A DNA stretch of 58,559 nt from Oscillospiraceae bacterium (GTDB lineage Bacteria > Bacillota > Clostridia > Oscillospirales > SIG530), in assembly GCA_015067075.1 (NCBI GenBank), contig SVND01000005.1, positions 1-58,559 of the forward strand. The letters are read 5' to 3'. A model generated the notes under the pieces. That model worked only from the letters and a program-made list of their open reading frames with translations, made no database searches and had not been told where the DNA came from. Within the stretch, counting starts at the first letter, position 1, and every line of letters begins with the position of its first letter. The position numbers and the translations under genes were made by a program. Positions 4,256-9,768 of the stretch are shown piece by piece.

Positions 4256-4927
4256 ATGATATATATCGTAGAAGACGATGCCGATATTCGCGAAATGGAA
4301 GCATATGCGCTGAAAAACAGCGGTTTTGAGGTCTGCGCTTTTTCCGACAGTGCTGAGCTTTTCAGCGCCATGGGCACAGGTGCTTTACCTGAGCTTCTTT
4401 TGCTCGACATAATGCTTGCAGGCGATGACGGTATGACGATCTTGCGCCGCATCAGACAAGACCCGCGCACAAAGCTCTTGCCGGTTATTATGGTTACTGC
4501 AAAAACTGCGGAAATCGAAAAAGTGCGCTGTCTCGACGCCGGTGCTGACGATTATATAACGAAGCCCTTCGGCATTATGGAGCTTGTTTCCCGCGTTCGT
4601 GCGCTTATCCGCCGTTCCCGCGCCGTAGAAGCACCCAATCTGCTTATCTGCGGATGTATCACCATTGATGATTCCGCCCATACCGTATGTGTCGATGGTA
4701 CGCCCTGCACATTGACATATAAGGAATACGAGCTTTTAAAGCTTTTGATGACAAATAGAAACATTGTTTTTTCCCGTGAAAAGCTAATGGACAGAATATG
4801 GGGCTTTGACTATGAGGGAGAAAGCCGCACCGTTGATATGCATATAAAAACACTCCGTCAAAAGCTTGGCGCAGGCGGTTCACTTATCGAAACTGTACGC
4901 GGTGTAGGTTACAAAATAGGAGGGTAA
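4256..4927 (+). CDS. OmpR/PhoB-family response regulator
   Basis: DNA-binding response regulator of 223 aa. The receiver domain covers residues 1-118, with the acidic pair D7/D8, phospho-acceptor D51 in LLLLDIML, T81 and K103 (ITKPF). The winged-helix output domain covers residues about 128-222 and ends TVRGVGYKIGG, typical of the OmpR class. GGAGGTGG precedes the ATG. The partner kinase starts 2 nt after this stop. PhoB/PhoP-type sequence is suggestive, but no phosphate genes lie nearby, so the regulon is unknown. Confidence 0.93.
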   Translation: MIYIVEDDADIREMEAYALKNSGFEVCAFSDSAELFSAMGTGALPELLLLDIMLAGDDGMTILRRIRQDPRTKLLPVIMVTAKTAEIEKVRCLDAGADDYITKPFGIMELVSRVRALIRRSRAVEAPNLLICGCITIDDSAHTVCVDGTPCTLTYKEYELLKLLMTNRNIVFSREKLMDRIWGFDYEGESRTVDMHIKTLRQKLGAGGSLIETVRGVGYKIGG

Positions 4928-4928
4928 T

Positions 4929-6287
4929 ATGACACGCAAGATATTCCTTTCTGTGTTCATTTCATCACTTTTCCTCTCTGTTGCAGCTACAATTTCAGCT
5001 TATTTTCTGTTTTTCCAAAACGTGCACACTGATTTTTCTTCAATCGCAGTTATTATTTTTTCTCTTATTTTAATCGGTCTCTCCGTTTTAGTCGGCATTC
5101 TCGTTTCATTTTTCATCACTTCACCTGTAAAGCACCTTGCCGACAAAGTACATAAAAGCGAGGTTTCCGATGATACTCCTTACTCGGATACATACGACGA
5201 GTTGATACCGCTTGTCGATGAGATCAGGTATCAGCGCATAGTTATAGGAAATCAGCTTCGCGAGCTTGCAGACGAACGTGAAAAGCTCGAATTTATTATG
5301 CGCGATATGCCTGTTGGCATTTTGGCTTTGGATATGGCAGGTCATATTCTTATGTCCAACGAAAGTGGAGATAAATTCCTCGGAATTACACGGCTTGAGG
5401 AAAGCGGTCTTTTCACCTCTTCAAATATTGATGCCGAAAAATGCATAAACGCCGCTATCATCGGTGAATATAACACGGTATATACACAATACGAGGGGCG
5501 CGACCTGCAGATAATGGCAAGTCCTGTGCTTTCCGACGGACGGCAATCAGGTGTGGTATGCTTTGCAATGGACGTTACGGAAAAGCTTCAGATAGACAGG
5601 ATAAAGCAGGAGTTTACCGCCAACGTAACACACGAGTTGAAAACTCCGCTTACGTCAATATCAGGCTATGCGGAAATGATAGAAACAGGTATTGCAAAAA
5701 ACGATGATATTTGCCGTTTTGCCACCATTATCCGAAAGGAAGCCGCGCGTCTTTTATCTCTTATCAGCGACATCATAAAGCTTTCCGAGCTTACCGAAAG
5801 CACTCCCGTCACATCGTATCAGCAGGTACAGCTTAAGGAATGTGTCGAGGAATGCGTTGATATTCTTTCTCTTTCCGCCGAAAAAGCACAGGTATCCATA
5901 AACGCCAGCTATGACGACAGCACCGTATACGCTGAACGCGCCCTTATATGTGAGCTTATATTCAACCTTATGGATAACGCGATAAGATACAATAAAAAAG
6001 GCGGTACAGTTACCGTAACCGCCAAAAACGATTCCGTTACCGTGTCTGACACAGGAATAGGTATTCCACCTGAACATCACGCTCGCATCTTCGAGCGTTT
6101 TTACCGCGTAGACAAAAGCCGCTCCAAGGCTACGGGCGGCACAGGATTAGGTCTTGCCATTGTAAAGCACGTTGCGGAGCTTTACGGCGCAAAGGTAACG
6201 CTTTCAAGCGCCGTCGGCGTCGGCACTACGATCCGCGTTGATTTTTCTTCCACTAAAAACACCAAAGGAGCAACCCAAAATGAGTGA
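4929..6287 (+). CDS. PhoR-like sensor histidine kinase
   Basis: Membrane sensor kinase of 452 aa. Two N-terminal membrane helices (about 7-28 and 41-63) are separated by only a dozen residues, so there is almost no extracellular sensor. A HAMP-like linker and a PAS-like domain (about 115-215) follow. The HisKA H-box ANVTHELKTPL holds H235. The ATPase domain shows the N box (NLMDN, N350), the G1 box DTGIGIP (374-380), the F box and the G2 box GGTGLGLA. It forms an operon with the upstream regulator and overlaps the next gene by 8 nt. The short loop suggests sensing in the membrane or cytoplasm (inference). Confidence 0.92.
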   Translation: MTRKIFLSVFISSLFLSVAATISAYFLFFQNVHTDFSSIAVIIFSLILIGLSVLVGILVSFFITSPVKHLADKVHKSEVSDDTPYSDTYDELIPLVDEIRYQRIVIGNQLRELADEREKLEFIMRDMPVGILALDMAGHILMSNESGDKFLGITRLEESGLFTSSNIDAEKCINAAIIGEYNTVYTQYEGRDLQIMASPVLSDGRQSGVVCFAMDVTEKLQIDRIKQEFTANVTHELKTPLTSISGYAEMIETGIAKNDDICRFATIIRKEAARLLSLISDIIKLSELTESTPVTSYQQVQLKECVEECVDILSLSAEKAQVSINASYDDSTVYAERALICELIFNLMDNAIRYNKKGGTVTVTAKNDSVTVSDTGIGIPPEHHARIFERFYRVDKSRSKATGGTGLGLAIVKHVAELYGAKVTLSSAVGVGTTIRVDFSSTKNTKGATQNE

Positions 6288-6813
6288 ACCCGGTTCCTTA
6301 TATGAAAAACAGGAGATCAAACTCTTTGTTCTCTATATTTTAAGCCGTTTAAGCCGTGCCGTACCGAAGCAAATACTGACGGATTCAGCTATGCACGGCG
6401 GTCTTATAAATTATTTTCAGCTTTCCGAATGCATCCCCGAGCTTATCGACTCTGGCAATATCATCGTTACTGACGAAAACGGCGAACAAACGTATGCCAT
6501 ATCTGCCGCAGGAGATAAGGTGCTTCGCGAGCTTGAGCGTACTCTTCCACGTCATGCACGCGATGCGGCAGAGCGCTCCGTTTTTTCCGTTTTGTCAACC
6601 CTGCGCCGTGACAAGCAAATACGCTGTGATTACAAAAAAACAGAAACGGGTTATACCGTAAACTGCTCTATCGACGATCTTGACGAGCCCTTAATGTCCA
6701 TATCTTTTTACGTTCCGACGTTAAATCAGGCACAGCATTTTGAAACGAAATTCCGACGCGATGCGGAAAAAATATATTCTGAAATAATCGGACTTTTTTC
6801 TTCCGAAATGTAA
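6280..6813 (+). CDS. DUF4364 family winged-helix protein
   Basis: 177-aa soluble protein. It starts at ATG 6280, inside the end of the kinase gene, chosen because AAAGGAG lies 9 nt upstream; a longer reading from 6238 lacks such a site. The pattern EIKLFVLYILSRL, then a helix-turn-helix-like middle and GEQTYAISAAGDKVL matches the DUF4364 family, which is widespread in Clostridia and resembles MarR/PadR-like winged helices. No function is known. Overlap with the kinase implies translational coupling. It could act as an auxiliary DNA-binding regulator (inference). Confidence 0.8.
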   Translation: MSEPGSLYEKQEIKLFVLYILSRLSRAVPKQILTDSAMHGGLINYFQLSECIPELIDSGNIIVTDENGEQTYAISAAGDKVLRELERTLPRHARDAAERSVFSVLSTLRRDKQIRCDYKKTETGYTVNCSIDDLDEPLMSISFYVPTLNQAQHFETKFRRDAEKIYSEIIGLFSSEM

Positions 6814-6834: not shown

Positions 6835-8865
6835 ATGGCAACCAACAGTTTATCTTCATTAAACGGCATAGGCGAACAGCGGGCGAAGGCATTTGAAAAG
6901 CTTTCCGTTTTCTCTGTTGATGATCTTTTGCGCCATTTTCCCCGTACATATATCGACTGGACAACTCCAAAGCCTATAGTCGATGCCGAAAACGGTGAGA
7001 TATGTGTATTTAAAGCTAAAATATGCGAGCCCTTTGCTGAAAAACGCGCATCAAGCGGTATTTTAGTTTCAAAAACAAGGATCTACGACGGCACAGCTTA
7101 CGCCGTTTTGACTTTTTTCAACCAGCCCTATCTTAAACAGCAGTTAAAACCAGGGACAACGTGGCTTTTCCGCGGAAAAGTGAATATCAGCTTTTTCGGC
7201 TGTGAGCTTACCTCTCCCCAGATAAACAAAGAAAACGATGCAGGTATCCTTCCCGTTTATCCCTTGACAAGCGGAATTACAAACACTATTATTCAAAGAG
7301 CCGTCCGCTCCGCGTTTTCAAAGCGAGGAGACGAGCAAAACGATCCCCTTCCCGCCGATATACGTCAACGGTTTTCTCTTGCCCACAGGCGCTGGGCTTT
7401 TGAGCAAATGCATTTTCCCAAAAGCTTTGACACCTTGGATATTGCAAGGCGCAGGTTTATCTTCGAGGAGCTTTTGCTTTTATCCCTCGGTATTTTTCAC
7501 TTAAAAGGACGGCGTACGTCACTTACCACGAACATAATTTGCCGCAGTGATCCGCGCGATTTTATCTCTTCTCTGCCTTTTTCCCTTACAGGCGCACAGC
7601 TTCGCGCGATAAACGATATTTCCGCTGACATGGGTAAAAATTCTCCTATGAACAGGCTCGTTCAAGGCGATGTTGGTTGCGGTAAAACGGTCGTTGCCGC
7701 CGCCGCTGTATATATTGCGGTAAAAAGCGGATTTCAAGCGGCTATGATGGCGCCTACGGAAATTCTCGCCACACAGCACTTTCAGTCCCTTTCCCCCATG
7801 CTTTCTTCCCTTGGCATACGCTGTGCATTGCTTACGGGAAGTATGAAAGCCGCCGAAAAAAGCTCCGTTTGCAAGTTTTTATCACAAGGCGAAATAGATT
7901 TTATCATCGGAACCCACGCAATCATACAGGAAAAGGTTACTTTTGCAAATCTCGGTCTTGTTGTCGCCGACGAACAGCATCGTTTCGGCGTGCGTCAGCG
8001 TGCAGGGCTCAGTGCAAAGGGAGAAAATCCCCATACACTTATCATGTCCGCAACACCTATCCCCCGCACTCTTGCTCTGATGGTGTACGGTGATCTTGAC
8101 GTTTCCGTGATAAACGAGCTTCCGCCGGGAAGACAAAAGGTAGATACTTTCCTTATCGACGACACAAAGCGTCAACGCGCATACGGGTTCATCGCCAAAA
8201 ACGTATTGGAAGGCAGACAAGCTTATATCGTTTGTCCTCTGATTGAAGTAAACGAAGAGGACGACGGACTTAAAGCCGTCGAAGCCTTCACAAACGAGCT
8301 TAAAACAAAAATATTCCCCGATTTTACCGTTGAGTTTTTGCACGGAAAGCAAAAGCCTGCCGTTAAAGATAAAATAATGCGTGATTTCGCCGATGGAAAA
8401 ACGCAAATACTCGTTTCAACGACGGTCATCGAGGTCGGAGTAAACGTAGTCAACGCCTCGGTAATGGTAATTGAAAATGCGGAGCGCTTTGGTCTTTCTC
8501 AGCTTCATCAGCTCAGAGGCCGAGTCGGCAGAGGCAGTGCAAAATCATACTGTCTGCTTATGTCCAACACAAAAAGCAAGGAATCTCTTGCAAGGCTTCG
8601 CGTCATGTGCTCCACAAACGACGGCTTTGCCATTGCGGAGCAGGATCTCTCCCTGCGCGGTCCCGGTGACTTTTTCGGTGACAGACAGCACGGTCTTCCC
8701 GCATTACGAGTTGCAAACTTCGCCTCCGATATGGCTGTGCTTACTCAGGCGCAAGCTGCCGCTTCCGATATTTTATCGCGCGACCCCGAGCTTTCCATGT
8801 ACGAGCATCGCGGACTTCGTGATATGATAGCCAATATGTTCGAATATAACGGTATTTTTAATTAA
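6835..8865 (+). CDS. recG: ATP-dependent DNA helicase RecG
   Basis: Branch-migration helicase that reverses stalled forks and processes Holliday junctions. 676 aa, normal length. An N-terminal wedge/OB region (about 50-150) is followed by helicase motifs: Walker A GDVGCGKT, the DEQH box in VVADEQHRFG, SATPIPRTLAL (motif III region) and QLRGRVGRG (motif VI). The C-terminal TRG-type hairpin region is present. ATG at 6835 lies 21 nt after the DUF4364 gene. A kinase-like gene follows after 11 nt. Confidence 0.97.
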   Translation: MATNSLSSLNGIGEQRAKAFEKLSVFSVDDLLRHFPRTYIDWTTPKPIVDAENGEICVFKAKICEPFAEKRASSGILVSKTRIYDGTAYAVLTFFNQPYLKQQLKPGTTWLFRGKVNISFFGCELTSPQINKENDAGILPVYPLTSGITNTIIQRAVRSAFSKRGDEQNDPLPADIRQRFSLAHRRWAFEQMHFPKSFDTLDIARRRFIFEELLLLSLGIFHLKGRRTSLTTNIICRSDPRDFISSLPFSLTGAQLRAINDISADMGKNSPMNRLVQGDVGCGKTVVAAAAVYIAVKSGFQAAMMAPTEILATQHFQSLSPMLSSLGIRCALLTGSMKAAEKSSVCKFLSQGEIDFIIGTHAIIQEKVTFANLGLVVADEQHRFGVRQRAGLSAKGENPHTLIMSATPIPRTLALMVYGDLDVSVINELPPGRQKVDTFLIDDTKRQRAYGFIAKNVLEGRQAYIVCPLIEVNEEDDGLKAVEAFTNELKTKIFPDFTVEFLHGKQKPAVKDKIMRDFADGKTQILVSTTVIEVGVNVVNASVMVIENAERFGLSQLHQLRGRVGRGSAKSYCLLMSNTKSKESLARLRVMCSTNDGFAIAEQDLSLRGPGDFFGDRQHGLPALRVANFASDMAVLTQAQAAASDILSRDPELSMYEHRGLRDMIANMFEYNGIFN

Positions 8866-8876
8866 GGAGATTTCAT

Positions 8877-9728
8877 ATGACTGAATTTTTTGAGCTTTCC
8901 TTTGAATGTTGCCCCCAGCATATAAAAACGCAATACGATTTTTGCGAATCTCTCGGCGAAAAATCACTTCTGCTCAGTCGTAAAAGCGACGGAGTAAAAT
9001 TCGTTTGCAAAAAAACTGTCAGACTTTCCGCAAAGCACACGGATATGTTACTTCCCATAAGCTGTAAAGGCGTAGCAAAAATAATTGAATATATTCCTGA
9101 TGAAGGCTGTAGCTATATCATCCGCGAATATTTCGAGGGTATTTCCCTTGACCGCCTTGTTAACGCCCGTATTTTCACTGAAGAAGAGTCTATATACTAT
9201 TCATCAAGTATATGCGATATTTTGTCCGAGCTTCACTCCGCAAGCCACGATATCATCCACGGTAACTTAAAGCCTGAAAACGTCATTATCCGCAATACCG
9301 ACGTTTTCCTTACGGATATAATTTGTGATTGTGAAGGCGAATTTAACGATATAAAGTACGATATTCGCGATCTCGGCATTCTTTTGCGCTTTATGATAAG
9401 CGGCTCAACGGAAATCAATGCGGAAAACAGCTCAGATATTACCACTCTTTCTGCCATTGTAAAAAAATGCGTAGTTATTGATACGGAGTACCGTTTTCGC
9501 TCCGTCGAGCTTGTAAAAACAGCTCTTTTGAACGCACGCCCCACCGTAAGAAACAAAAAAAATATCCTTTTCATAATCGTTGCAATTATTGTTGCCGCCA
9601 TCTGCGCTTCAGCAGTTATGATAGCGCAGTCATACCGCGAGGACCCCAATTACAACATCACGCCTACACCGACCGTTGCTCCTGCCGTCCAGCCGGGAAT
9701 CGGTACGGAAAGCGATATAATTAAATGA
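8877..9728 (+). CDS. Membrane-anchored protein kinase-like protein, probable pseudokinase
   Basis: 283 aa. Residues about 25-220 follow the Ser/Thr protein-kinase fold: a VAIK-like KFVCKK (K45/K46), a hinge-like YIIREYFEGISLDRL, and the catalytic-loop block HGNLKPENV (128-136). The usual HRD/HGD Asp is Asn130, while the metal-binding Asn135 remains. A D at 147 stands where DFG should be, but the motif reads TDII. The conserved helix-F block is YDIRDLGILL. No glycine-rich loop is seen. A membrane helix spans about 228-250, followed by a short outside tail containing TPTPT. Known: many bacterial kinases of this topology sense wall fragments through outside domains; here the tail is too short for a PASTA domain. 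Inference: a nucleotide-binding or scaffold pseudokinase co-transcribed with recG. Confidence 0.75.
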   Translation: MTEFFELSFECCPQHIKTQYDFCESLGEKSLLLSRKSDGVKFVCKKTVRLSAKHTDMLLPISCKGVAKIIEYIPDEGCSYIIREYFEGISLDRLVNARIFTEEESIYYSSSICDILSELHSASHDIIHGNLKPENVIIRNTDVFLTDIICDCEGEFNDIKYDIRDLGILLRFMISGSTEINAENSSDITTLSAIVKKCVVIDTEYRFRSVELVKTALLNARPTVRNKKNILFIIVAIIVAAICASAVMIAQSYREDPNYNITPTPTVAPAVQPGIGTESDIIK

Positions 9729-9730
9729 CG

Positions 9731-9768
9731 AAAAAAGAGTTAACGGAAAATTCCGTTAACTCTTTTTT
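9731..9768. terminator. Bidirectional rho-independent terminator
   Basis: Perfect 18-bp inverted repeat (9731-9748 with 9751-9768) with a 2-nt loop. It is flanked by A and T runs, so it can end transcription of the plus-strand pseudokinase operon and of the minus-strand esterase gene. Confidence 0.9.

Follow-up and report, generated by a model that had tools for sequence, protein, structure and literature searches.

The gene at positions 8877-9728 of the window, the whole 58,559-nucleotide stretch of an Oscillospiraceae contig that was analyzed, lies on the forward strand, as do the ribosome-binding site and the four upstream genes described below, and encodes a 283-residue pseudokinase with a kinase-like region (residues 1-222), a transmembrane (TM) helix and a short outside tail. 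By sequence comparison, it groups with clostridial receptors that consist of a kinase, a TM helix and an ectodomain, the last mostly of leucine-rich repeats (LRRs). On balance, we lean toward the view that this derived member of the receptor-kinase family now serves as a docking or allosteric module that is tethered to the membrane and transfers no phosphate. Relative to the family, it has shed its partner gene, its outside sensor, its catalytic Asp and its activation loop and has retained its TM anchor, the β3 Lys, the metal-binding Asn, the DFG Asp and a large part of the core of the C-lobe. The ancestry of this pseudokinase is readable, which allows its losses to be cataloged by comparison with 12 intact relatives.

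The kinase motifs, for which we use the standard names HRD, VAIK, APE and helix F, were compared in an alignment with these 12 relatives (L191, L200, L002, L092, L202, L217, L218, L220, L221, L222, L242 and L244). Three further loci (L219, L225 and L230) were left out of the 12, though the LRR profile scores best for all of them; each of the three retains the HRD Asp. All 12 relatives compared have the HRD Asp, the DFG Asp and an activation loop. Fifty-two columns show the same residue in 11 or all 12 of them, and the window protein retains 28 of these, including K45, K132, P133, N135, D147, E153, D162, G167 and R206, and loses 24. Half of the lost columns (12/24) are accounted for by the Arg and Asp of HRD and by 10 of the 11 conserved columns between the DFG Asp and the point where the activation segment ends. 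The stretch HGNLKPEN (residues 128-135) has HGN (9258-9266) in place of HRD, with Gly129 and Asn130 where 12/12 relatives have Arg and Asp, so the substitution of Asn for the catalytic Asp described in the original prediction holds. That prediction also had the metal-binding Asn and the helix-F Asp persisting, and both N135 (9279-9281) and D162 (9360-9362) are indeed kept, each being present in 12/12 relatives. The β3 (VAIK) Lys is likewise kept as K45 (9009-9011; Lys in 11 of the 12 relatives). The DFG motif had been called degenerate, which is correct in that it reads DII, but the Asp itself is retained as D147 (9315-9317; 12/12 relatives). At the glycine loop, which had been described as absent, the turn has 4 residues fewer than in most relatives, in line with that description, and the likely position of the αC Glu is occupied by His54. 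The largest defect, which had been missed altogether, is an activation loop cut by about 21 residues: the alignments leave a remnant of residues 148-153 (9318-9335), with 6 residues from the DFG Asp to the APE Glu compared to 27 in L217. Of the APE motif only the Glu has an aligned counterpart, namely E153. Judged by the features of an active Hanks-type Ser/Thr kinase, the window protein thus has the β3 Lys (K45), the metal Asn (N135) and the DFG Asp (D147) and lacks the HRD Asp, an activation segment with APE, a glycine-rich loop and the αC Glu.

Pfam recognized the protein through Pkinase (PF00069; E 1.3e-9, 38.3 bits against a cut-off of 31.7), with the match covering residues 56-147 only. 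The original prediction had proposed a structural model as a check; a single-sequence model was unusable (pLDDT 36), and an AlphaFold2 model built with seven relatives reached a pLDDT of 77 and a pTM of 0.68. These relatives (L242-L247 and L253, from viral_contigs, with two pairs near-identical) are all intact kinases, which pulls the model toward a kinase fold. The model contains β1-β5, a short αC, αD, αE, αF, two later helices and a TM helix at residues 225-255, and VIA-align superimposed it on Staphylococcus aureus PknB (4eqm) with a Z of 21.8 and an rmsd of 3.0 over 210 residues. We therefore predict a bilobal protein kinase-like fold for the window protein.

One strong hydrophobic segment was found, scoring 3.09 at residues 231-249 compared to 0.86 for the next best elsewhere in the protein, and its hydropathy is the highest among the TM segments of 16 proteins compared. 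We place the TM helix at about residues 230-252 (9564-9632) from hydropathy, with the model helix spanning 225-255. Four Lys/Arg residues flank the helix on its N-terminal side and one on its C-terminal side, and from this bias the kinase domain is predicted to lie inside the cell. Beyond segment 231-249 follow 34 residues, compared to 176-443 in the relatives, where these figures are minima given that some are cut by contig or locus ends. By translation, the outside tail is about 31 residues long (9633-9725), with TPTPT at residues 262-266 and a pLDDT below 50 for residues 262-283, and it is too short to house a repeat domain. The picture of a membrane-anchored pseudokinase without a sensor domain, with a cytoplasmic kinase-like domain and about 33 residues facing out, is thus upheld by the single TM helix, the short tail and the HGN in place of HRD. 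The proposal of an "inverted topology" was not borne out. The PASTA kinase encoded in the same genome (L031) has three Lys/Arg residues before its TM helix and none after, and 12/12 kinase-TM relatives carry more Lys/Arg before the helix than after it. This shared lean suggests that the topology of the window protein is the usual one and that only the ectodomain is missing. A profile search of the window's genome with LRR_4, which matched 1 of 14 control genomes, gave no match there, and neither did a search, run without a positive control, with the ectodomain of L217.

Two trees and a set of subfamily profiles bear on the ancestry. The first tree, of 58 kinases with L179 left out, placed the window protein weakly (88/31) beside proteins that were later identified as kinase-TM-LRR receptors, and a position in the PASTA clade gave p 0.026. 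The second tree set 12 family members beside a selection of the kinases available, namely 11 PASTA, 12 DYD-like and 6 others. Here the window protein was recovered with the 12 family members at 99/94 and within them at 88/77, and the PASTA clade was rejected (p 0.005); placement with the DYD-like kinases (p 0.10) and outside the whole receptor clade (p 0.136) was not rejected. The window protein forms the longest branch in both trees (2.6 in the second). A profile of the LRR group, made from five kinase-TM-LRR proteins, scored 133 bits over residues 11-253, TM helix included, compared to 93, 78, 53 and 45.5 bits for four other kinase-group profiles. Because the LRR group was defined with the first tree already known, the support for it is only partly independent, although the profile scores come from another method. 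Small DYD-like kinases had been candidates for the nearest relatives and were displaced by the subfamily profiles and the second tree, both of which favor the LRR kinases. An origin from PASTA kinases was also rejected, given the tree result and the lack of a PASTA domain by Pfam.

Members of the parent family have a cytoplasmic N-terminal kinase, one TM helix and an outside domain that is mostly of leucine-rich repeats. LRR_4 was found by Pfam in L191, L200, L002, L092, L202 and L242, the repeats of L217, L218 and L220-L222 were judged by eye, and LRR was not found in L244. At a threshold of 1e-44, 51 of 320 order genomes had a match to the receptor alignment. Among the 30 loci taken, 17 score best with other groups and 13, the window included, with the LRR profile; the 12 other LRR-profile loci have Asp at the HRD position, ten by motif and two, L221 and L222 (CRD), by sequence. 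A six-frame profile search placed a helix-turn-helix (HTH)-like gene, with a product of about 136-186 residues, directly upstream of the kinase in 12/12 family loci (L242, L244 and L254-L263). Nine of these loci are rows of the search profile itself, and the independent ones are L242 (E 1.6e-56), L257 (E 3.2e-40) and L260 (E 5.5e-44). HTH_31 matches one of four HTH-like proteins scanned, below its cut-off. Large SLH-domain proteins adjoin the HTH-like/kinase unit in L254, L255 and L258. A narrow full-text literature search, judged on the titles and abstracts of the matches listed, returned no publication on a bacterial LRR receptor kinase with an upstream HTH-like gene, and this clostridial unit of an HTH-like gene and a membrane kinase with outside repeats may represent an undescribed receptor type. 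In the window, the HTH-like gene had no match at E 1e-4. Elsewhere in the same genome, a weak match (E 1.9e-5) was considered as a possible partner and rejected, as it maps to the C-terminal region of a Macro-domain protein; this part of the protein (L267:1492-2499, contig C27) resembles the HTH-like family. With no match to LRR_4 or the L217 ectodomain in this genome, and with the HTH-like gene matched only weakly inside the Macro-domain protein, the sensor, the partner and catalysis are all missing, which goes beyond the catalytic Asp alone.

No orthologue of the window gene was found in genome_contigs or viral_contigs by protein scans that reach close relatives only, and the taxonomic family of the window is represented by one genome in the data searched. 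An HxN kinase pattern occurs in 3 of 197 order genomes, namely the window's, G116 and G187, the last with a stop codon inside the match. The G116 locus (L179:1-2076) encodes a PASTA-domain pseudokinase with HGNLKPSN, from the same order, and a further kinase match in that genome is a 764-residue frame at G116:C3. HxN kinases are therefore rare in the order, with the window protein and one PASTA pseudokinase among 197 genomes. Across the class, the HGN pattern was found in 2 of 391 genomes, one of which is the window's. G447 had been a candidate for a second HGN kinase and was discarded, as its motif lies inside a long ORF whose translation does not contain it, and so is in another frame and not part of a kinase. 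The data show an apparently single, derived copy, whose nearest family is intact in 12/12 members compared.

Several known systems resemble the window protein in part. The clostridial kinase-TM-ectodomain proteins share its sequence clade, its N-terminal kinase inside the cell and a TM helix at the same place, but, unlike the window gene, they possess both the HRD Asp and the activation loop, carry at least 176-443 residues on the outside and are preceded by the HTH-like gene. The PASTA kinases (PrkC/PknB/Stk1) have a similar predicted fold and membrane orientation; the window protein has no PASTA domain, and shared ancestry was rejected. In the parts of the literature consulted, the DYD pseudokinases are described as membrane-linked proteins of Firmicutes that lack the αC Glu and carry a β3 Arg and a DYD motif (PMC12599244). 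The membrane link and the missing αC Glu are shared, and DYD-like kinases form a neighboring branch in our tree, whereas the window protein has a β3 Lys (K45), DII and HGN instead of the β3 Arg and DYD motif reported there. The same source, as far as consulted, describes the actinobacterial ActPs2 pseudokinases as having a β3 Arg, a mostly deleted DFG and an expanded activation loop (PMC12599244). ActPs2 proteins also have Asn in place of the HRD Asp and a C-terminal TM region (PMC12599244); unlike them, going by that description, the window protein has lost rather than expanded the activation loop and has kept the β3 Lys and DFG Asp. EssB/YukC of type VIIb secretion is characterized, in the portions of the sources consulted, by a degraded glycine loop, a shortened activation loop and a structural role (PMC12599244, PMC9600267). 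The likeness to the window protein thus extends to a cytoplasmic pseudokinase, a poor glycine loop, a short activation loop and one TM helix, and the differences are the absence of a Pfam YukC match, a different ancestry and the lack of an extracellular domain. The hits returned by PADLOC correspond to kinase models, chiefly PD-T4-6, and are no mark of a defense system.

A non-catalytic pseudokinase tethered to the membrane fits the pattern seen, in which the parts needed for phosphotransfer are lost and the anchor, the residues of the ATP site and an open frame are kept. We infer that the window protein does not transfer phosphate and that it could work in the manner of EssB/YukC or of the MviN pseudokinase domain, by analogy with these modules. 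The main rival to this explanation is that this lineage lost the receptor system and that the window gene is the last piece of it, decaying and without function, which we regard as possible but on the doubtful side. Consistent with decay, the partner, the sensor, the catalytic Asp and the activation loop are all gone, the gene is a single copy without an orthologue found, and its branch is the longest in the trees. Two relatives also look broken, indicating that decay does occur in this kinase family. One (L219:1492-2337, genome G138) is a 281-residue member without a TM helix, its sequence stopping inside the C-lobe. The other (L225:1498-2325, genome G668) carries pieces of both the HTH-like gene and the kinase in one frame and looks like a joining deletion; we rejected it as a natural fusion since the first kinase strands, the last part of the C-lobe and the TM helix are missing from it. 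Reading L225 as a deletion makes the relic more likely and both the docking module and the working stump considered below less so. The state of the gene itself argues the other way. Its frame is fully open at great divergence, with none of 5,000 base shuffles remaining open, and its codon usage is ordinary (log-odds per codon of +0.19, compared to -0.14 to -0.78 for the other five frames, with the training set being 12 neighboring genes of the window that score 0.12-0.29). These signs of maintenance stand despite the longest branch in both trees. A likely ribosome-binding site, AAGGAG (8864-8869, read in the sequence), is present and overlaps the recG stop codon. K45, N135, D147, D162 and R206 are also all kept, and the TM segment, as noted, is the most hydrophobic of those compared.

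A docking module could come in several forms. The window's genome gave two kinase matches, the window protein and the PASTA-domain protein, which keeps the question of a partner simple. Because the PASTA kinase is the only other kinase found in the genome, our guess for the likeliest single partner would be that kinase, bound by the window protein as the inactive half of a dimer. The idea of a working stump, in which catalysis, sensor and partner gene were shed and the membrane-bound shell was kept as a regulator, for example as such an inactive dimer partner, seems to us rather doubtful; we found nothing like such a conversion of a receptor kinase in the literature searched, and bacterial pseudokinases are described in the part of the source consulted as largely unexplored experimentally (PMC12599244). 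Binding of nucleotide by the pseudokinase would be a further guess, and a variant of the docking module in which ATP/Mg at K45, N135 and D147 switches its hold on a partner is one that we consider doubtful. It would account for the retention of all three ATP/metal residues alongside the loss of the phosphotransfer parts, but the glycine loop and the αC Glu are absent, and YukC, with similar losses, is reported in the portion of the source consulted not to bind ATP in vitro (PMC9600267). The same Lys, metal Asn and DFG Asp might instead support an active, unorthodox enzyme that transfers phosphate or another group, as in AMPylation, in the way that the kinase-fold proteins SelO and SidJ have gained other chemistry according to the part of the source consulted (PMC12599244). 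This is very unlikely given that the catalytic Asp, the glycine loop, the αC Glu and the activation segment are jointly absent. Least probable, to the point of being hardly credible, is that the window protein is itself the EssB/YukC protein of a type VII secretion system. The layout is alike, in that the portion of the source consulted gives a pseudokinase at residues 3-206 and a TM helix at 220-243 for YukC (PMC9600267), compared to 1-222 and 230-252 here. However, Pfam returned only kinase families for the window protein at E values up to 1, a search in which weak matches may be filtered, and the ancestry lies with the LRR kinases. EssB was absent among the best 50 fold-search matches listed, which has no bearing either way.

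The pseudokinase gene lies 11 bases downstream of a gene in the ORF list that we take to be recG (6835-8865), following the name given in the original prediction. Closely packed with recG are genes for a PhoB-like regulator, a PnpS/PhoR-like histidine kinase (both assignments from matches below NCBIfam cut-offs) and a DUF4364 protein (4256-6813). Three bases past the pseudokinase stop is a terminator-like hairpin with a T run (9731-9768, forward strand; 17 pairs, 5 of them G-C), in a region where 9 such hairpins were found against 8.1 expected. A promoter-like site with 11 of 12 matches lies within recG at 7264-7292, 1.6 kb upstream of the pseudokinase gene. The pairing with recG emphasized in the original prediction is real in the window but is not general: RecG matches occur in 193 of 197 order genomes (1e-60), and a kinase profile found no kinase in the 60 recG neighborhoods searched, from 60 of those 193 genomes and some of them cut by contig ends. 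The arrangement of recG and the pseudokinase gene thus looks local. Around DUF4364, 39 neighborhoods contained no kinase by the same type of search (L162 left out) and, within about 4.5 kb, nothing that matched the histidine kinase or recG of the window. DUF4364 itself (window positions 6280-6813) is present in 182 of 197 order genomes and in 0 of 14 control genomes, and its neighbors vary between genomes.
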